Shown here one piece after another: positions 1 to 40,383 of a DNA stretch of 40,383 nucleotides (the stretch's first letter is position 1; every line of letters begins with the position of its first letter). Source of the DNA: a virus; the IMG/VR virus record IMGVR_UViG_3300048836_000217, positions 1 through 40,383 of that record. One strand, given 5' to 3'. The position numbers and the translations under genes are program-made. Below the pieces are notes generated by a model. It saw only the letters and a list, made by a program, of their open reading frames with translations, had not been told where the DNA came from and did no database searches.

Positions 1-127
1 CTGTCTTCCTTAGCTGACCGCTAACATGTGTATAAACGCAACCACAACCAAAACAGTTTCGTTTATACCTCTAAATGTCGTGTAAAACGAATTAACCAAT
101 CCACCCCAAAGGATTAAGCGTTTTTCT
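1..127. repeat. Terminal direct repeat, left copy (assembly overlap)
   Basis: Identical over all 127 bases to the last 127 bases of the window. The plus-strand gene that ends in the right-hand copy continues smoothly into the sequence that precedes the lysis genes here. An overlap of exactly 127 bases is what a de Bruijn assembler with k=127 leaves on a circular contig, so I read it as closure of a circular or circularly permuted genome of 40,256 unique bases, not as a physical terminal repeat. Confidence 0.93.
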
Positions 128-30001: not shown

Positions 30002-31415
30002 CGAACCTATTTTTATTCATATATTCAAATCCGGGCATTTTATATCCCATTAACCTGCAAAAATCCCTTGCATCTTCAATATCAGTTTTATTGTGCAATA
30101 CCCAAAACGGAGAAATTAATTTTTCCTTCGACATTTCGGACAGTACTTTATTATTTTGATGCCTCGCAGTTTTTAAAACTTCGCCTCTTGATAATAATTT
30201 TAACTCGGCAACTTTTTCTTTAATCCCATCTTCCTCAGACTTTTTAAATATATGTCCGCAAAAATCACATTCCATTTTTTGTATTGGCATTAACGCACTA
30301 CATTCCGGACATTCTTTTATAGGGGCTTCCGATTCTTTTGATGTTTTCTTTTTATCATTGAACAAGCTCCAAGTACGCGAATCTTCCCAAAACTTCATTC
30401 TCGGAATGTTGTTTCCAAAATCTAAAATATTGAAATGTTTTTTAACCGGAGTAGTCCTCGATCCCCTTCCGCACATTTGAAGAAACAAGGGAAGTGAAGT
30501 TGTTGCACGGTATAAAATTACAGTTTCAATATCCGGCTGGTCAAATCCTGCATTTAATATTCCACAATTGCAAACTATCGCATCCGGTGTTTTATCGAAC
30601 CATTCCAAAACCTCTTCCCTTTCTTTTTTAGGTGTTTTACCGTCAATATGCCGGGCTTCAAATCCGTTATCATTAAATTCCTGAGTAACCCTTTTAGAGT
30701 TTTCCACGTTGGAAGAAAAAAGAATAGTCTTTGTTCCGGGTGTCAAACGCTCCCAGTTTTGAACAACTCCATGCCACATCTTATTTTCTTCATAATATTC
30801 GGAAAGGTCGTAATCATCGCCTTTTAATTTTGCCTTGCTTAAATCAACTTTGACCCCATAAGTTTTTGCCTTTGAAAGAAAACCTAATTCTATTAATTCC
30901 GGAGTGTCGATTTCCTGTACCAAATCCGTATAAAATTCTGCAAGTTCTGGAACTGCTTTTCCTTTCCGGTACGGTGTGGCAGTCGCGCCAATTACAATTG
31001 TATTTTTGTTAATATATTCAAATATTTTGGTAAAGGAATTTAAGTGTGCCTCATCAATAATTATTAAAGATTTAGAAGCCAAAAAAATAGAGTAGGAATC
31101 TTTCCTTCTATCAAATGTTTCAATCATTGAAACGTGCAAAGGTCTTGAAAGATCTGGTTTTGAATTAGCGGTTATCAATTCTGCTCTCAATCCAAATTTT
31201 TCAAAAGAACTCCCCGCTTGTTTTAATAATTCTTTCCTATGGGTAAAAACCAAAACTCTACCGCCCTTTTCAATATGGTTTTTTGCCATATAAGTAAACA
31301 TTATAGTCTTTCCGCTTCCGGTAGGAGCGCATAGAACAATCCTTTTATTACCACTTTTTAAAGAAGCCCTAAGACTTTGGATTATTTTGTTTTGATATGG
31401 TCTGAGTTTTATCAT
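29985..31415 (-). CDS. SF2 DEAH-box helicase with C-terminal zinc finger
   Basis: 476 residues. Walker A APTGSGKT (30-37), Walker B LIIIDEAH (about 118-125), motif III ATATPYR (about 145), motif VI QMCGRGSRT (about 335). A late CPECSALMPIQKMECDFCGH (about 378-398) is a zinc finger. Such phage enzymes (UvsW-like) remodel forks and recombination intermediates. It lies between the primase-helicase and VRR-NUC genes with 3-nt and 17-nt junctions. Confidence 0.87.
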   Translation of the reverse strand: MIKLRPYQNKIIQSLRASLKSGNKRIVLCAPTGSGKTIMFTYMAKNHIEKGGRVLVFTHRKELLKQAGSSFEKFGLRAELITANSKPDLSRPLHVSMIETFDRRKDSYSIFLASKSLIIIDEAHLNSFTKIFEYINKNTIVIGATATPYRKGKAVPELAEFYTDLVQEIDTPELIELGFLSKAKTYGVKVDLSKAKLKGDDYDLSEYYEENKMWHGVVQNWERLTPGTKTILFSSNVENSKRVTQEFNDNGFEARHIDGKTPKKEREEVLEWFDKTPDAIVCNCGILNAGFDQPDIETVILYRATTSLPLFLQMCGRGSRTTPVKKHFNILDFGNNIPRMKFWEDSRTWSLFNDKKKTSKESEAPIKECPECSALMPIQKMECDFCGHIFKKSEEDGIKEKVAELKLLSRGEVLKTARHQNNKVLSEMSKEKLISPFWVLHNKTDIEDARDFCRLMGYKMPGFEYMNKNRFDVFRK

Positions 31416-36214: not shown

Positions 36215-36246
36215 TTTGTTTGTTATTATTTTTTGGTTTATCTTTG
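36215..36246 (+). promoter_or_regulatory. Rightward promoter immediately upstream of the cassette array
   Basis: TTTG (36215-36218), a 20-base spacer and TATCTTTG (36239-36246), a good Bacteroidota promoter. It points into the array, 15 bases before the first palindrome. Its place is like the Pc promoter that drives integron cassettes. It shares the 72-bp control region with the leftward early promoter. Confidence 0.7.
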
Positions 36247-36260
36247 TGGTAAGGTTATTC

Positions 36261-36303
36261 CCGATAACGGCAAGTATAACACATCGTTTTAATGTGCTAC
36301 AAC
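36261..36303 (+). repeat. Short palindrome A0 at the array entry
   Basis: Opening box CCGATAAC, arm TAACACAT (36277-36284), loop and arm ATGTGCTA (36292-36299), then CTACAAC that also opens element A. The loop reads TCGTTTTAATG (36284-36294), exactly the loop of element E. No GTT box follows, so this looks like half of a first site fused to element A. Confidence 0.6.
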
Positions 36304-36430
36304 GGACGAACGCTATACGAAGGCAGGGTTAAGATGCACTCCCTTTCAGCCTTGCATAAATGACAAATAGATGCACGAACGCTCACTTTAGCAGTACGCC
36401 CTGCTTTTGTATAGCGTATGTTATAGGGCG
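36296..36430 (+). repeat. attC-like palindrome A
   Basis: Opening box GCTACAAC; arm 36311-36328 pairs with 36399-36416 (16 of 18, both differences G-T wobbles); 70-nt loop; closing box GTTATAGGGC at 36420-36429, which opens cassette 1. This and the next genes lie inside the 293-bp gap between the first early gene and the first cassette gene. Confidence 0.75.
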
Positions 36431-36445
36431 TTTATTTTAATTGAA

Positions 36446-36718
36446 ATGCAAAAAACATTCAAAGTAGCGCAAGTAAGAGATTTATTAAACCAAGTCCACA
36501 ATGAGAAAATCACCTTTAGTCGTTTTGTTGAAATCCTCAACGAACACGCAGAAAGGAAAAGGAAGTTTGATATTAAACAGCTTGATGATTCGTTGAGTTG
36601 GGTAAAATGGCTTGAAGAATCAAAATCACACGGATTAAACGAAGCAAGTCAATCTGATGCTATTCGTGATATATGCACTAAAATCAATGAGGTTGTCAGG
36701 TCTTTAAATGCCCTATAA
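36446..36718 (+). CDS. Cassette 1 protein, hypothetical
   Basis: 90 residues: MQKTFKVAQVRDLLNQVHNE, then ITFSRFVEILNEHAERK, mainly helical. It resembles short helical proteins of Bacteroidota that begin FKVxDVRDLLN and contain ITFSRxVEILNE, all uncharacterised. Start chosen at the first ATG after the opening GTT box; an in-frame ATG at 36407 lies in the palindrome. The TAA stop belongs to the closing box CCCTATAAC, as in integron cassettes. Confidence 0.72.
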   Translation: MQKTFKVAQVRDLLNQVHNEKITFSRFVEILNEHAERKRKFDIKQLDDSLSWVKWLEESKSHGLNEASQSDAIRDICTKINEVVRSLNAL

Positions 36719-36846
36719 CGTATCGGTGCTATACGATGTGGCGGATTTTCAGCAGAAAGCCCAATGCGAAGCACCACAGTTTGAATTAGTAAAAATGTTT
36801 AATCGAAGCACGTCAGCCGCCATATTGTATAGCACTTGTTAGCGGC
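36711..36846 (+). repeat. attC-like palindrome B
   Basis: Opening box CCCTATAAC; arm 36726-36744 pairs with 36817-36835 (17 of 19, both differences G-T wobbles); 72-nt loop; closing box GTTAGCGGC at 36838-36846, which opens cassette 2 and is matched by GCCGCTAAC at 37123-37131. Confidence 0.78.
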
Positions 36847-36872
36847 TGCCCTTCTTCACAAATCAAAATAAA

Positions 36873-37118
36873 ATGCAAATACACATCCCAAGCGAACAAA
36901 GATTAAGAGTAAGCACAAATAAAGAAAGAGTGTTTGTTGATGCAAGTTCAGCACCACATCAAGAATGTTTAACTATTGAATTTTACTCGTTTCAAAAACA
37001 ACAAATCAGGTCAAAGTCAGGCACATTTAAAATGTTTGTCTTTCAAAAAGACCAAGACATTACCGATTTTGATTTTGGCTTTTGGTCAGATGCTGAAACT
37101 GTGTGGCAGTCTTTTTAG
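36873..37118 (+). CDS. Cassette 2 protein, hypothetical
   Basis: 81 residues: MQIHIPSEQRLRVSTNKERV, then TIEFYSFQKQQIRSKSGTFK, ending SDAETVWQSF. Beta-rich with aromatic residues. No family recognised. It lies between the GTT box at 36838 and the AAC box at 37123, with the stop just before the closing box. Confidence 0.68.
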   Translation: MQIHIPSEQRLRVSTNKERVFVDASSAPHQECLTIEFYSFQKQQIRSKSGTFKMFVFQKDQDITDFDFGFWSDAETVWQSF

Positions 37119-37122
37119 GGTT

Positions 37123-37148
37123 GCCGCTAACATGTGTATAAACGCAAC
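37123..37148 (+). repeat. Truncated palindrome C, identical to the end of the array
   Basis: Closing box of cassette 2 plus the left arm only. Its 25 bases at 37124-37148 are identical to 40274-40298 at the end of the array (and so to 18-42). After 37148 the two copies diverge and no GTT box follows. It marks a break in the array where the next stretch was joined. Confidence 0.75.
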
Positions 37149-37208
37149 TAAAGTGGTAATAAAAACTATTAAAAATTTAATTTATGAAATCAATTAAAAC
37201 CTAAAACT

Positions 37209-37361
37209 ATGAACAAAACAAAACAAGGATCGATAAAATACACGATTGAGGAAGCGAAAAAAGCTGACAGAATAGCACGGCACTACACAGGGCGCGGAGG
37301 TCTAACGTCTTTCGTAAAGTTCGCCATTGCGCACCTTTGGAAAGATGAGTTTAATGAGTAG
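37209..37361 (+). CDS. Small hypothetical protein (possible DNA-binding)
   Basis: 50 residues: MNKTKQGSIKYTIEEAKKAD, then RHYTGRGGLTSFVKFAIAHL and a short acidic end. Strand then helix, turn, helix recalls ribbon-helix-helix proteins, but this is weak. It lies after the truncated palindrome C, without a matched cassette border on its left. Its stop lies 2 nt before the AAC box of element D. Confidence 0.55.
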   Translation: MNKTKQGSIKYTIEEAKKADRIARHYTGRGGLTSFVKFAIAHLWKDEFNE

Positions 37362-37458
37362 ATAACGTCTCAGGGCTAAAATATCGTGCGATATGAGTGA
37401 AGTACAATATATGGAATTAACCAAAAGCCAAGCATGGATTTTAGCCCATGTTAGTGGC
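37361..37458 (+). repeat. attC-like palindrome D
   Basis: Opening box GATAAC; arm GGGCTAAAAT (37373-37382) pairs perfectly with ATTTTAGCCC (37438-37447); 55-nt loop; closing box GTTAGTGGC (37450-37458), matched by GCCACTAAC at 37676-37684. The loop contains the ATG that starts the next gene. Confidence 0.8.
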
Positions 37459-37683
37459 TCTTTGGCTGTGCGGATAGCCGAACTCAAAAAGGGAATGCAA
37501 ATCCTGACAATAGAGAAAGTTGATTACAAAGGGGAAAGAGGGGTTGAGATTGAAATAAAGAAAACAACAGTCAAACAGCTACGTGGCACATCCCTTCAAC
37601 TTGAACGATTCCCCTTCCCTTTGTATTGGAAGAAAGATATTGATTTGAATAGCGTGGTGGTGGTTAAGCCAAATTGCCACTAA
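37393..37683 (+). CDS. Cassette 3 protein with a palindrome-encoded leader
   Basis: 96 residues if translation begins at the ATG in the loop of palindrome D; the leader runs through the right arm and the GTT box, which codes Val-Ser-Gly-Ser, then LAVRIAELKKGMQILTIEKV. An internal ATG at 37495 would give 62 residues. The core (MQILTIEKVDYKGERGVEIE) is beta-rich, soluble, of unknown family. The stop is the TAA of the closing box CACTAAC. Confidence 0.65.
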   Translation: MSEVQYMELTKSQAWILAHVSGSLAVRIAELKKGMQILTIEKVDYKGERGVEIEIKKTTVKQLRGTSLQLERFPFPLYWKKDIDLNSVVVVKPNCH

Positions 37684-37733
37684 CGGTTTGGCTAAACTGT
37701 CGTTTTAATGCAGTTTTAGCCGTTGTTGTAGGT
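37676..37733 (+). repeat. Short attC-like palindrome E
   Basis: Opening box GCCACTAAC; arm GGCTAAACTG (37690-37699) pairs with CAGTTTTAGCC (37711-37721) with one bulged base; the 11-nt loop is TCGTTTTAATG; closing box GTTGTAGGT (37725-37733), matched by ACCTACAAC at 37967-37975. It is the shortest complete site, 58 bp. Confidence 0.78.
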
Positions 37734-37773
37734 ACGTAAGCCTACGGATTTTAAAACAAAAAACTTAAATACA

Positions 37774-37956
37774 ATGGAAGAAAATAAATTAGATGCAAAT
37801 GATTACGCCAAACTTGCCAAAGAGCAATTGAGAGAAGCGTACAAATCACTTTTAAAAGCTGCCGAAATTGATGGCAAATATGAATACAAAGACTCTATAA
37901 AATGTAGAATGCTGGACAGAGCTTCAAAAGTAATTGAGATAACAGAAGGGCTTTAG
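37774..37956 (+). CDS. Cassette 4 protein, hypothetical
   Basis: 60 residues: MEENKLDANDYAKLAKEQLR, then EAYKSLLKAAEIDGKYEYKDS, helical and charged. It sits cleanly between the GTT box at 37725 and the AAC box at 37967. No family recognised. Confidence 0.65.
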   Translation: MEENKLDANDYAKLAKEQLREAYKSLLKAAEIDGKYEYKDSIKCRMLDRASKVIEITEGL

Positions 37957-37966
37957 TAGGCTTATT

Positions 37967-38177
37967 ACCTACAACGCTTCGGGTATAACAAAAGTTAATG
38001 ATATGAAAATGACAGACCAATGGGGAGTTCCCTTAACATCTTTAGAATTACAAAGGTTTCTAAAATATTTGGAAAATAATAGAATAGCCCCAAATACAAT
38101 GACAAATAATGAAAGAATACAATTAGTTTGGGATTGGAAGGAGTTGAATTAATTTTTGTTATACCGTGTTGTGCAAC
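37967..38177 (+). repeat. attC-like palindrome F with a gene in its loop
   Basis: Opening box ACCTACAAC; arm 37982-37999 pairs with 38148-38165 (17 of 18, the one difference a G-T wobble); the loop of about 148 nt holds a 49-codon gene; closing box GTTGTGCAAC (38168-38177). The stem is the longest of the array, and the loop is twice the usual size. Confidence 0.68.
38003..38152 (+). CDS. Small gene inside the loop of palindrome F
   Basis: 49 residues: MKMTDQWGVPLTSLELQRFL, then KYLENNRIAPNTMTNNERIQ, ending DWKELN. Helical, soluble; no family. Start and stop fall almost exactly at the two arms of palindrome F, so the gene is flanked by an 18-bp inverted repeat. It may be a cassette gene trapped in the site. 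Confidence 0.58.
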   Translation: MKMTDQWGVPLTSLELQRFLKYLENNRIAPNTMTNNERIQLVWDWKELN

Positions 38178-38255
38178 GTTTTTTAATGCAATAAATGACT
38201 AAAAATTACAATAATGATTTTTATTAATGCAATTTCTTTCTAAATGTTGCACAAC
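38168..38255 (+). repeat. Orphan cassette without an ORF
   Basis: Opened by GTTGTGCAAC (38168-38177) and closed by the exact complement GTTGCACAAC (38246-38255), 88 bp in all. It contains no reading frame of note. A pair TTAATGCAATAA / TTATTAATGCA inside it can also pair. It shows that the ends, not a gene, define a cassette. Confidence 0.65.
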
Positions 38256-38379
38256 GTTGGGTATTTCTGCTGTGGCGACAACTAAAACAAAAACTACAAA
38301 GAATTACAAATCTAAATATTATTAAAAAAAGTGAAACAAAAAACATTCAGAGCCATAGCAGAAATACTGGGTTATCTGC
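38250..38379 (+). repeat. attC-like palindrome G
   Basis: Opening box CACAAC; arm 38261-38276 pairs with 38352-38367 (15 of 16, the difference a G-T wobble); 75-nt loop; closing box GTTATCTGC (38371-38379), matched exactly by GCAGATAAC at 38586-38594. Confidence 0.75.
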
Positions 38380-38383
38380 TGGC

Positions 38384-38593
38384 TGGATTTCCATTAAATA
38401 AAAACTTCCCGAATTTGATTTGCCTGTACTCGTTTGTAAAGAAGGTAGTGAAGACACAATTGAAATTTGCCGTCTCGAAAGCAAAATAATAAGAAAAGAT
38501 AGCGTTTCTCTCGAATGGCTGCAAGGTAAATCAAGTTATGATTATTGGTATCACGAAGTTACACATTGGCAATTTCTACCAGCTTGCAGATAA
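38384..38593 (+). pseudogene. DUF551-like gene with an in-frame stop
   Basis: The frame reads WISIK, stop, then KLPEFDLPVLVCKEGS and later SSYDYWYHEVTHWQFLP before the TAA of the closing box. This is the DUF551 pattern (WI...LP...VLV......VTHW.PLP), common in phages and mobile DNA. The TAA at 38399-38401 replaces what should be a Glu/Lys/Gln codon, and no ATG lies upstream in frame. It is either a broken gene or one read with an unusual start or stop. The stop codon is again supplied by the closing TAAC. Confidence 0.62.
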
Positions 38594-38922
38594 CGTTAAG
38601 TATATGCACCGTTAAAACTAAAACATAACAAATGAGAACATACATTTATAAAGAACTGATAGCAGAAGCCTTTACATCTATAGGCAAGAACAATATAAAC
38701 CATCCCGACATCATAAAAGCGTTTGGGATAGATAAAACTGGACATTATTGCGAAATTTATAAAGAGGATTGGGGTTTTTCTATACACCTCTACGGTAAAG
38801 GTTTTATGAACGGTTATTACCCGACCATAGTTGATATTACTGAACAAAAAGATGTAAAGGCTTTGCGTACAAAGATAAAAACTGTCTTTAGTTCAAATGG
38901 TGTATATACAGTGTTAGCAAAT
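38586..38922 (+). repeat. attC-like palindrome H (uncertain), spanning a gene
   Basis: Opening box GCAGATAAC; arm GTATATGCACC (38600-38610) pairs with GGTGTATATAC (38899-38909; the one difference a G-T wobble); followed by GTTAGCAAAT (38913-38922), which resembles the complement of TTTGCTAA near 39019. The loop of 288 nt holds most of the next gene. It is weaker than the other sites and might be chance. Confidence 0.4.
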
Positions 38923-39012
38923 CCGTTGCCTACCAAAGCACAAGAGATTGAAAAAATACTAAAACCATTAAAAGGCAGAGATATTGGTAAACCATTAAAT
39001 GGCGAATGGTAG
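38632..39012 (+). CDS. Array protein, hypothetical
   Basis: 126 residues: MRTYIYKELIAEAFTSIGKN, then DKTGHYCEIYKEDWGFSIHL, a Lys-rich helix and GRDIGKPLNGEW at the end. An alpha-beta protein of unknown family. It starts in the presumed loop of palindrome H and passes through the presumed GTT box, so either the gene or that palindrome call is misplaced. It has no matched cassette border of its own. Confidence 0.65.
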   Translation: MRTYIYKELIAEAFTSIGKNNINHPDIIKAFGIDKTGHYCEIYKEDWGFSIHLYGKGFMNGYYPTIVDITEQKDVKALRTKIKTVFSSNGVYTVLANPLPTKAQEIEKILKPLKGRDIGKPLNGEW

Positions 39013-39017
39013 GAAAT

Positions 39018-39120
39018 GTTTGCTAAAGTCGAGGCTAAGAAACGTAGCCTATAATCACGTTTCATTAATCAGCACAATGTTAATTGGCTATGTTTTTTAG
39101 CCTTTGTTAGCACCAGTACT
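39018..39120 (+). repeat. attC-like palindrome I
   Basis: Opening box TTTGCTAAAG; arm 39032-39049 pairs with 39086-39103 (16 of 18, both differences G-T wobbles); 36-nt loop; closing box GTTAGCACCAGTACT (39106-39120), matched over 14 of 15 bases by AGTATTGGTGCTAAC at 39727-39741. Confidence 0.8.
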
Positions 39121-39151
39121 TTCACTCACAATTTAATTTAAAAACAATAAT

Positions 39152-39475
39152 ATGGAATTTTCATTTGAAGCAAAAGTAGTTCTCACTTTAGAACACAAAA
39201 AAGAAATGACAACCTCGAAACACGTAGCAACGGATTTCAATCTGGGGGTTAGTGATAACTTAGTAAGACACCAATATTTAGATAAAGAAGATTTGCCCAC
39301 CGAAGCAGGTTCTAAGGTTTTATCTAACGTTCTTGTGCAGGGATTGGTAGGAAACATACACTTAGCACACGAAAAAGGATTTAGGGATAGTGCCGAGCAT
39401 TTACGCTGGATTATTTCTGAATTAGAACGTGGATTTATTACAGTAGCAAACGTTGAACAATCTAATTTTAAATAA
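39152..39475 (+). CDS. Cassette 8 first protein, hypothetical
   Basis: 107 residues: MEFSFEAKVVLTLEHKKEMT, then LSNVLVQGLVGNIHLAHEKG and FRDSAEHLRWIISELERGF. A beta start and helical end; no family recognised. It shares a cassette with the next gene; its stop and the next ATG are one base apart, so this is a two-gene cassette. Confidence 0.68.
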   Translation: MEFSFEAKVVLTLEHKKEMTTSKHVATDFNLGVSDNLVRHQYLDKEDLPTEAGSKVLSNVLVQGLVGNIHLAHEKGFRDSAEHLRWIISELERGFITVANVEQSNFK

Positions 39476-39476
39476 T

Positions 39477-39728
39477 ATGAAACCAACAAAATTTAAAGAA
39501 TGCAATGTAACATTTGCAAAAGACCAACCAGAATATAATCAATTACCAGCGTTTAGGGATGAAAAAGGCGAGGTAGTAACGTGCTGGAAATTGACATTTA
39601 GGGAACGGCTAAGGATTTTATTGAAAGGTGAAGTTTGGCTTTGCTTACTGACTTTTAACCAGCCATTAACGCCAAGTTTTATGAGTACCAAGAAAAGTGA
39701 TGTTCTTGAAACGAACGATGTTTCTTAG
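39477..39728 (+). CDS. Cassette 8 second protein, conserved hypothetical
   Basis: 83 residues from MKPTKFKECNVTFAKDQPEY. The pattern NVTFAKDQPEYNQLPAFRDE, then VVTCWKLTFRERLRILLKGE, then WLCLLTFNQPLTPS matches a family of short proteins that I recall from many bacteria and phages (CNVTFAxDQPEYxPLPA / CWxLTxxERLRLLxxG). Function unknown. It ends next to the closing box. Confidence 0.7.
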   Translation: MKPTKFKECNVTFAKDQPEYNQLPAFRDEKGEVVTCWKLTFRERLRILLKGEVWLCLLTFNQPLTPSFMSTKKSDVLETNDVS

Positions 39729-39870
39729 TATTGGTGCTAACGTTCCGCAGCTTGGCGAGGTGCGGGACTTTCAGCACTAAAGCCGATTAGAATTACTTAA
39801 CTTAAAATTTAGCACAATATGTCAAACGAAGTACAAAACCCCGCATCTTGCCAAACTGCTGTTAGCGGTT
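39727..39870 (+). repeat. attC-like palindrome J
   Basis: Opening box GGTGCTAAC (part of the 15-base border at 39727-39741); arm 39747-39766 pairs with 39840-39859 (17 of 20; two differences are G-T wobbles, one C-A); 73-nt loop that contains the ATG of the next gene; closing box GTTAGCGGTT (39861-39870), matched by GACCGCTAAC at 40272-40281. Confidence 0.78.
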
Positions 39871-40280
39871 CGGCTTTTTCAATCCACGATTTGAAGTGCG
39901 GAAACATTTTAAATTACGATACAGCAGAAGGAGAAATTTTGCCTACCGTAATAGACTGGCAAGACCTTAAATGGCTTACCGAAGACCCGAAAGGATTTAA
40001 TCTTGTTCATTCGCCTATTCCATTAACCGAAGAGTGGCTTTTGAAGTTTGGATTTTCCGACAAAGACTATAAAAATGGATACATAGGTAAGGACTTTAAG
40101 AGTGGTGGAATGATACTTGATTTTGTGTTATCAAAACCATTTTCAAAAGGCGAATGGAACAACACCTATACTTTCGATTTTGAGGGTCATAGATTTAGCA
40201 AAATGGAGTTTGTCCACGAATTGCAAAATTTCTACTACTGTCTTACTGGCGTGATGCTGTCTTCCTTAGCTGACCGCTAA
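39819..40280 (+). CDS. Cassette 9 protein with a palindrome-encoded leader
   Basis: 153 residues, the longest of the array. The ATG is in the loop of palindrome J, and the frame reads through the right arm and GTT box as PASCQTAVSGS before SIHDLKCGNILNYD. The body (TEDPKGFNLVHSPIPLTEEW, then KNGYIGKDFKSGGMILDFVL) is a beta-rich protein of unknown family. The stop is the TAA of CCGCTAAC. This leader shares Val-Ser-Gly-Ser with the cassette 3 protein. Confidence 0.72.
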   Translation: MSNEVQNPASCQTAVSGSAFSIHDLKCGNILNYDTAEGEILPTVIDWQDLKWLTEDPKGFNLVHSPIPLTEEWLLKFGFSDKDYKNGYIGKDFKSGGMILDFVLSKPFSKGEWNNTYTFDFEGHRFSKMEFVHELQNFYYCLTGVMLSSLADR

Positions 40281-40383
40281 CATGTGTATAAACGCAACCA
40301 CAACCAAAACAGTTTCGTTTATACCTCTAAATGTCGTGTAAAACGAATTAACCAATCCACCCCAAAGGATTAAGCGTTTTTCT
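40257..40383. repeat. Terminal direct repeat, right copy
   Basis: Exact copy of bases 1-127. The stop of the last cassette gene lies at 40278-40280. The copy then holds the final palindrome remnant K and runs into the end of the spanin candidate gene on the minus strand (shown completely at 92-667). Confidence 0.93.
40272..40324 (+). repeat. Terminal palindrome K of the array
   Basis: Closing box of cassette 9 (GACCGCTAAC), arm GTATAAACG (40286-40294), a 21-nt loop and arm CGTTTATAC (40316-40324), a perfect 9-bp stem. No GTT box follows, so the array ends here, facing the convergent lysis operon. Its first 25 bases from 40274 are identical to the truncated element C at 37124-37148. Confidence 0.75.

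Follow-up and report, generated by a model that had tools for sequence, protein, structure and literature searches.

A probable integron-like cassette-exchange system in phages, associated with a tyrosine recombinase family without the I2 insertion

We analyzed a viral contig of 40,383 nucleotides (IMG/VR record IMGVR_UViG_3300048836_000217; its full length is called the window here) that carries, near its right end, an array of small genes, each lying between a GTT box and a complementary AAC box, with palindromes separating them. This array is very probably part of a site-specific cassette-exchange system that is integron-like and rests on a different recombinase family. Comparison of related contigs revealed reshuffling of cassettes, the boundaries of the mobile unit, co-varying cassette ends, linkage to a recombinase gene and an attI site, site polarity, a wobble zone, and leader fusions. 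The window represents the whole genome of a tailed phage: bp 1–127 are identical to the last 127 bp, and the contig is therefore a complete circular assembly. Part of its terminase has 62% identity to the terminase of Olleya phage Harreka, which makes a Flavobacteriaceae-like host likely.

Matched ends were defined as exact complementarity of at least 9 bp in a GTT...AAC arrangement, and 200 dinucleotide shuffles served as the null. The array contains eight such pairs within 36,254–40,324, each cassette-specific and 9–10 bp long, compared with a mean of 0.87 and a maximum of 5 in the shuffles. The remaining 36 kb of the window holds seven pairs, which are AT-rich and unchained. A preliminary description of the window had reported eight cassettes with their own matched ends of 9–15 bp. 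The eight pairs stand, with the qualifications that one encloses no gene and that about 10 units are present when two damaged ones are counted; the reported length does not, as the 15-bp exact match is found in a sister phage (G001) and not in the window. The gene-less pair (38168/38255) is the weakest, at 88 bp and with a self-complementary box. Among the damaged units, the one ending at 37366 has an opening without a match, and the one ending at ~39029 has lost its AAC. Only GTT/AAC is retained in the R boxes of the array, which do not follow the GTTRRRY/RYYYAAC consensus. The features of the array are listed below (ORF, open reading frame).

36254–36268, + strand: left edge of the array, GTTAT-TCCCG-ATAAC; the G001 backbone alignment also ends here (36269).
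36266–36300, + strand: remnant of a short attC-like palindrome (AACGGCAAGTATAAC...TCGTTTTAATG...), matching an intact short site of L001 at 82.5%.
36301–36422, + strand: attC-like site 1, 5' of cassette gene 1, with AAC, 6-nt spacer, long stem, 2-nt spacer, and GTT.
36420–36719, + strand: cassette 1, ends GTTATAGGGC and GCCCTATAAC (exact match), ORF 36449–36718.
36717–36840, + strand: attC-like site 2, spacers 6 (AAC side) and 2 (GTT side), from spacer scoring and fold.
36838–37131, + strand: cassette 2, ends GTTAGCGGC and GCCGCTAAC (exact match), ORF 36873–37118.
37129–37366, + strand: unit 3, with AACATGTGTATAAACGCAAC (possible attI relic), a 50-aa ORF (37209–37361), and the AAC end at 37366.
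37364–37452, + strand: attC-like site 3, from sequence.
37450–37684, + strand: cassette 4, ends GTTAGTGGC and GCCACTAAC (exact match), ORF 37393–37683.
37682–37727, + strand: attC-like site 4, short form, spacers 5/3 (spacer scoring).
37725–37975, + strand: cassette 5, ends GTTGTAGGTA and TACCTACAAC (exact match), ORF 37774–37956.
37973–38170, + strand: attC-like site 5, long form, 198 bp, spacers 6/2 (spacer scoring).
38168–38255, + strand: empty unit without a gene, ends GTTGTGCAAC and GTTGCACAAC (exact match).
38253–38373, + strand: attC-like site 6, spacers 5/3 (spacer scoring).
38371–38594, + strand: cassette 7, ends GTTATCTGC and GCAGATAAC (exact match), with a short open frame coming in from the attC.
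38592–39108, + strand: damaged unit, from sequence, with the left half of an attC (from 38592), ORF 38632–39012, and a decayed AAC (AAAG) at ~39026.
GTT end at 39108, + strand: right arm of attC-like site 8, within the damaged unit.
39106–39741, + strand: cassette 9, ends GTTAGCACCA and TGGTGCTAAC (exact match), ORFs 39152–39475 and 39486–39728.
39739–39863, + strand: attC-like site 9, coding for the leader MSNEVQNPASCQTA of cassette 10.
39861–40281, + strand: cassette 10, ends GTTAGCGGT and ACCGCTAAC (exact match), ORF 39819–40280, which starts inside the attC.
40279–40324, + strand: array end AACATGTGTATAAACGCAAC...CGTTTATAC, a possible attI relic with a weak score of 24, equal to the null 99th percentile.
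40257–40383, no strand: 127-bp direct repeat of window positions 1–127, from circular assembly of a genome of ~40,256 bp.

Unit 3 has 94% identity in G001, and the sequence beyond its AAC differs there. The loop of site 5 contains a 49-aa ORF (38003–38152). Pfam searches of the window cassettes gave sub-threshold matches only, and an Rfam search of the window gave no match. The imperfect palindromes between cassettes noted in the preliminary description held up on folding: folds are strong and stabler on the strand as written than on its complement (−19.1 vs −13.4 kcal/mol for 36717–36840; −20.8 vs −17.4 kcal/mol for site 1, folded over 36290–36422). With spacers of 5–6/1–3 nt and covarying stems, the sites match the attC layout of R boxes, unpaired spacers, L boxes, and stem. 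Covariation of the stem arms, tested by direct arm shuffling rather than with a covariance model, is pronounced (z ~9–11) and absent at mirrored offsets.

The sister phage G001 (IMGVR_UViG_3300048930_000277) and the window are colinear, with 82%–93% identity in most matching backbone blocks, and the G001 array occupies the same position with most cassettes different. A 1,318-bp block with cassettes 9 and 10 is 100% identical in the two phages, and the left half of one attC recurs behind a different cassette. The first cassette of the G001 array (reverse strand, 30921–31396) codes for a Dam-type DNA adenine methyltransferase (PF05869, E = 4.7e-13). Cassettes 1 and 3 had no match in viral contigs beyond the sister phage. 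Homologs of cassette 9 in L001, L002, and L003 have ends that are changed yet matched, with GTTAGCACCA in the window becoming GTTACCACCA/GTTACCG in L002/L003 on both sides together; L004 and L005 have the cassette 9 gene without cassette ends. Homologs of cassette 10 in L017, L018, and L020 have the upstream palindrome, including the start codon, in common with the window but not the downstream one, and the homolog in L019 has co-varied ends; the end versions seen for cassette 10 are GTTAGCGGT and GTTAGCATT. The same cassettes with different neighbors, to which the preliminary description had pointed, were thus found, and both ends change in concert; gene order is not fixed, and matched ends are not missing from close relatives. 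Some short palindromes recur near-identically across arrays, and one attC in L001 (4881–4960) is a chimera of the left arm of window site 3 (37364–37395) and the right arm of site 8 (39066–39108), between which pairing is possible.

L025, a 256-kb phage contig, has the cassette 10 leader too, fused there to another gene in a longer array; immediately after this array comes the gene for a 266-aa tyrosine recombinase. A viral scan with this recombinase, the one seed protein from which all loci derive, identified 80 loci; arrays abutting the recombinase occur in jumbo phages. Phage status is based on IMG/VR and on terminase genes (encoded on 8 of 10 large contigs). In most loci with enough upstream sequence, the array lies upstream of the recombinase and its last AAC is 37–74 bp from the gene start; a conserved attI, AAC-TATTATATATA, directly precedes the gene in 38 of 59 loci. 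Catalytic residues of the phage recombinases are all invariant, and the predicted fold (mean predicted local distance difference test 85.7, predicted template modeling score 0.63) best matches IntI4 and XerA. Relatives score 161 bits, split over two stretches, against the integron integrase profile TIGR02249 (cut-off 265). Nine bacterial genomes have profile matches at ~2–197 and 237–315, none above the cut-off and with the insertion region unmatched; the family lacks the I2 insertion. The best NCBIfam match is the XerA-type NF040815 (195 bits, below the cut-off of 220). In a phylogenetic tree, the family (moderate branch support, 88) is sister to IntI (100) and separate from the XerC/D of the hosts (99). 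Relatives with a dedicated recombinase and attI bear out the earlier proposal of an integron-like phage array from a related system outside the integron definition.

The phage recombinases group in a single clade (99), inside which lie two sequences from metagenome-assembled genomes (MAGs); these contigs, L112 and L113, are filed as Methylophaga and Salinivirgaceae MAGs and are probably phage contigs. Among the closest plasmid matches is a TnpF-like tyrosine recombinase on Acinetobacter plasmids (e.g., NZ_CP104336.1, 7630–8301), with 49% identity to the phage recombinase. The family is probably a member of the "integron-like" subgroup of Smyshlyaev et al. 2021 (PMC8138268), a paper that, in the part cited here, calls the insertion essential for integron function. 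The same part describes no cassette arrays for subgroup members without the insertion, whereas attI and arrays are present here.

Traces of exchange were apparent among closely related loci. The recombinase regions of L035 and L048/L049 are 97% identical, and they share a 960-bp cassette unit (99.9% identity) whose neighbors differ: it adjoins another attC in L035 and attI, at its right end, in L048/L049, with both breakpoints at AAC. L078 and L079 have 100% identity over 1,229 bp from TAAC/TATTATATATA on and different cassettes before it, and L069–L072 follow the same pattern. A 394-bp unit is duplicated in L087, with one copy at attI. The AAC-to-AAC breakpoints and attI junctions define the phage unit as attC-GTT-gene-AAC. 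Comparative support for cassette mobilization by site-specific recombination is strong. The integron-style layout first proposed for the array is retained in its matched ends and revised in its orientation, as the mobile unit is a palindrome plus the gene that follows it, with crossover at AAC.

This orientation separates the phage arrays from those of bacterial relatives. A genome scan identified ~80 bacterial loci, mostly in Bacteroidota, with recombinases of 41%–54% identity and arrays downstream of them. Of the two spacers, phage sites have the longer one next to AAC (77:1), and bacterial sites have it next to GTT (44:2; Fisher P ~6e-30). Window sites scored automatically (36717, 37682, 37973, and 38253) all have phage polarity, as does 39739 by eye. 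In the frame of the recombinase, the long-spacer side points to attI in every case. Strand counts of ORFs, taken relative to the recombinase, are +120/−2 in phages, +104/−5 in bacterial relatives, and +5/−25 beside canonical IntI; phage ORFs read toward attI and those of the other two groups away from it. With the long-spacer side constant and ORF direction flipped, phage cassettes are mirror images of chromosomal ones. Their attC lies 5' of the gene; the integron rule, attC at the 3' end of the gene, holds in the bacterial relatives, where a duplicated 777-bp cassette (L168) has boundaries at C/GTT, the ordinary integron geometry.

Site chemistry distinguishes the family from canonical integrons. 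Extra bases on the non-crossover arm occur in 5/69 phage stems, 14/83 bacterial I2-less stems, and 16/17 canonical Bacteroidota stems, the last from few arrays. On the crossover strand, G·T outnumbers A·C by 109 to 11 in phage sites and 136 to 21 in bacterial I2-less sites. Nearly all G·T wobbles fall at positions 15–23 counted from AAC, and the wobble-bearing strand is the better-folding one in 62 of the 65 phage cases that were clear. Of 392 sampled Bacteroidota genomes, 107 have canonical IntI (TIGR02249 over the cut-off; e.g., L254, L255, and L259), and arrays beside it also have cassette-specific ends (median 10 bp) and boxes that deviate from GTTRRRY. Long matched ends were therefore dropped as a defining mark of the system; the non-GTTRRRY boxes and matches longer than 7 bp emphasized in the preliminary description are seen but do not distinguish it. 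The real differences from integrons are the I2-less recombinase, the lack of extrahelical bases, and the inverted and often translated attC.

The I2-less family occurs in 120 of the 392 genomes (~31%, E ≤ 1e-60), a figure for recombinase presence, with arrays verified in a subset. Bacterial contigs often end a few hundred bases past the recombinase (L117, L131, L147, and L157), as if repeated attCs broke assemblies, and arrays in MAGs are probably undercounted. Very few complete integrons are known from Bacteroidetes, with IntegronFinder 2.0 reporting one in Bacteroidetes proper (PMC9024848); by that count, I2-less arrays have probably been overlooked.

Phage attC sites are frequently translated. 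A main ORF that begins within attC and runs on through the GTT box was seen in 48 of 107 phage cassettes vs 1 of 69 bacterial ones. The frames of these 48 ORFs are distributed 34:10:4, and 34 read GTT as a codon (P = 2e-7). Two window cassettes, 4 and 10, have ORFs of this kind; that of cassette 4 begins inside site 3 (37393) and continues in frame across the GTT box (...AWILAH/VSGSL...). Site-encoded leader peptides include MSNEVQNPASCQTAVSG, and recurring leaders (...NLNISDV, MSNEVQNPASCQTAV) are joined to different downstream proteins. A general presence of promoters in phage attCs was also considered and rejected: the Bacteroidota promoter motif TAnnTTTG is not enriched on the gene strand (4/80 vs 4.7 shuffled).

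The mechanism suggested by these patterns is as follows. A tyrosine recombinase, sister to IntI and without I2, would recognize the attC-like hairpin of a circular cassette, presumably as a single-stranded substrate folded from one strand and marked by G·T wobbles, and would join the cassette, through its AAC, to an attI in double-stranded form (AAC/TATTATATATA) that neighbors the recombinase gene. Matched ends would be the halves of the outer box of the site, re-paired in a putative circular intermediate. In the phage unit, the site before the gene supplies a 5' leader and often the start codon, and genes are read toward attI. Window cassettes may have been gained and shuffled by a recombinase acting in trans from a co-infecting phage or the host, and the cassettes may act in phage-host conflict.

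Several observations weigh against this interpretation. No tyrosine recombinase was found in the window by PF00589 profile search, nor an integron integrase (TIGR02249), nor any recombinase in the G001 record. The attI relic candidates of the window score 24 (array end) and 26 (unit 3), at or just above chance (99th percentile 24). The leader of window site 9 on another gene in L025 and the chimeric attC of L001 require exchange at GTT or within the palindrome, so either AAC is not the sole crossover point or homologous recombination acts too. Some of the reshuffling could come from homologous recombination between repeated attCs, but the attC/attI junctions could not.

The window array, with at least six sites and no PF00589 match, is by analogy comparable to a cluster of attC sites lacking integrases (CALIN), and the source of its enzyme has to be considered. 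A chromosomal I2-less recombinase of the host, from the bacterial clade, might move the window cassettes in trans. The window does not itself encode a recombinase, the bacterial clade is common in Bacteroidota genomes, and its sites have the same wobble zone; however, bacterial attCs lie 3' of the gene with C/GTT boundaries, and the window units have phage polarity. We regard this source as possible though doubtful. It is compatible with the proposed cassette-exchange system, altering only where the enzyme comes from.

It is improbable that the array is an ordinary CALIN of canonical host cassettes mobilized by canonical IntI. Phage CALINs are known among integrons (Qi et al. 2023, PMC9892861) and are functional with IntI1, and canonical IntI is common in Bacteroidota, with the ~10-bp matched ends described above. 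In contrast, window genes run opposite relative to attC polarity, the extrahelical bases of canonical stems are rare in phage stems, and arrays with common cassettes, leaders, and polarity adjoin I2-less phage recombinases. The cassette 10 protein, the sole window protein so searched, had no match in 395 Bacteroidota genomes in a search without a positive control. Polaribacter phage P12002L, a published phage CALIN, was also examined; only two matched pairs were seen at 28–48 kb, and a chained array like the present one was absent.

It is very improbable that this is an ordinary locus in which hairpin terminators separate small phage genes and homologous recombination between similar hairpins reshuffles them. 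Hairpins can terminate transcription, and near-identical short palindromes would permit homologous exchange. This explanation leaves unaccounted for the co-varying cassette-specific ends, the AAC breakpoints beside non-homologous sequence, and the attI-adjoining cassettes, and a fixed recombinase-attI-array order is present in dozens of phages. That each gene is a small transposon-like element, its matched ends being gene-specific terminal inverted repeats, is the least credible reading, since mobile blocks span AAC to AAC with the palindrome included on one side, the ends of homologs differ in a coordinated way, and Pfam identified no transposase in the window cassettes (target-site duplications were not searched for).

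Like integrons, the proposed cassette-exchange system has matched end boxes, palindromes ordered AAC/spacer/stem/spacer/GTT, one attI beside a tyrosine recombinase, a 3-bp core at which cassettes are reshuffled, small genes that are mostly unknown, and one strand favored in folding. Unlike them, it has a recombinase without I2, a G·T wobble zone instead of systematic extrahelical bases, an R box reduced here to GTT/AAC and, in phages, attC 5' of genes that run toward attI and often start in attC. In the "reverse" integrons of Treponema, the integrase is codirectional with the array (PMC4909258), as is the recombinase of the bacterial relatives, which also lies upstream of the array; in the phage arrays the genes too are turned relative to attC/attI, and Treponema has an ordinary IntI according to the literature. 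Dimer recombinases of the XerA and XerC/D type are of similar size and the same fold, and the best NCBIfam match is of XerA type, but the hosts' own XerC/D form a clade separate from this family, which is flanked by attI and cassette arrays. CTXphi integration by XerCD (PMC4792948) likewise uses a one-strand-folded phage site without extrahelical bases and a recombinase without I2, but involves neither cassette arrays nor a dedicated recombinase gene. In a literature search that covered published papers and not preprints, the I2-less cassette system is apparently an undescribed relative of integrons. We lean toward regarding it as a second cassette-capture platform, sister to integrons, with folded single-stranded sites on a G·T-marked strand, no I2, and no extrahelical bases, and with an inverted phage version in which the site is translated and proteins are fused to interchangeable leaders.

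The joint origin of the I2 domain of IntI and of extrahelical bases has been described as a chicken-egg paradox, and a viral origin of integrons has been raised as speculation (Escudero et al. 2016, PMC4792948). A widespread I2-less sister family with working-looking arrays and sites without extrahelical bases makes this paradox directly testable. The proposed system also means that phages own gene-capture platforms that swap unknown small genes, and that one recombination site can serve also as the 5' end of a gene. If the assignment to a second platform is true, this platform could be the intermediate form that explains the evolution of I2 and of attC sites.

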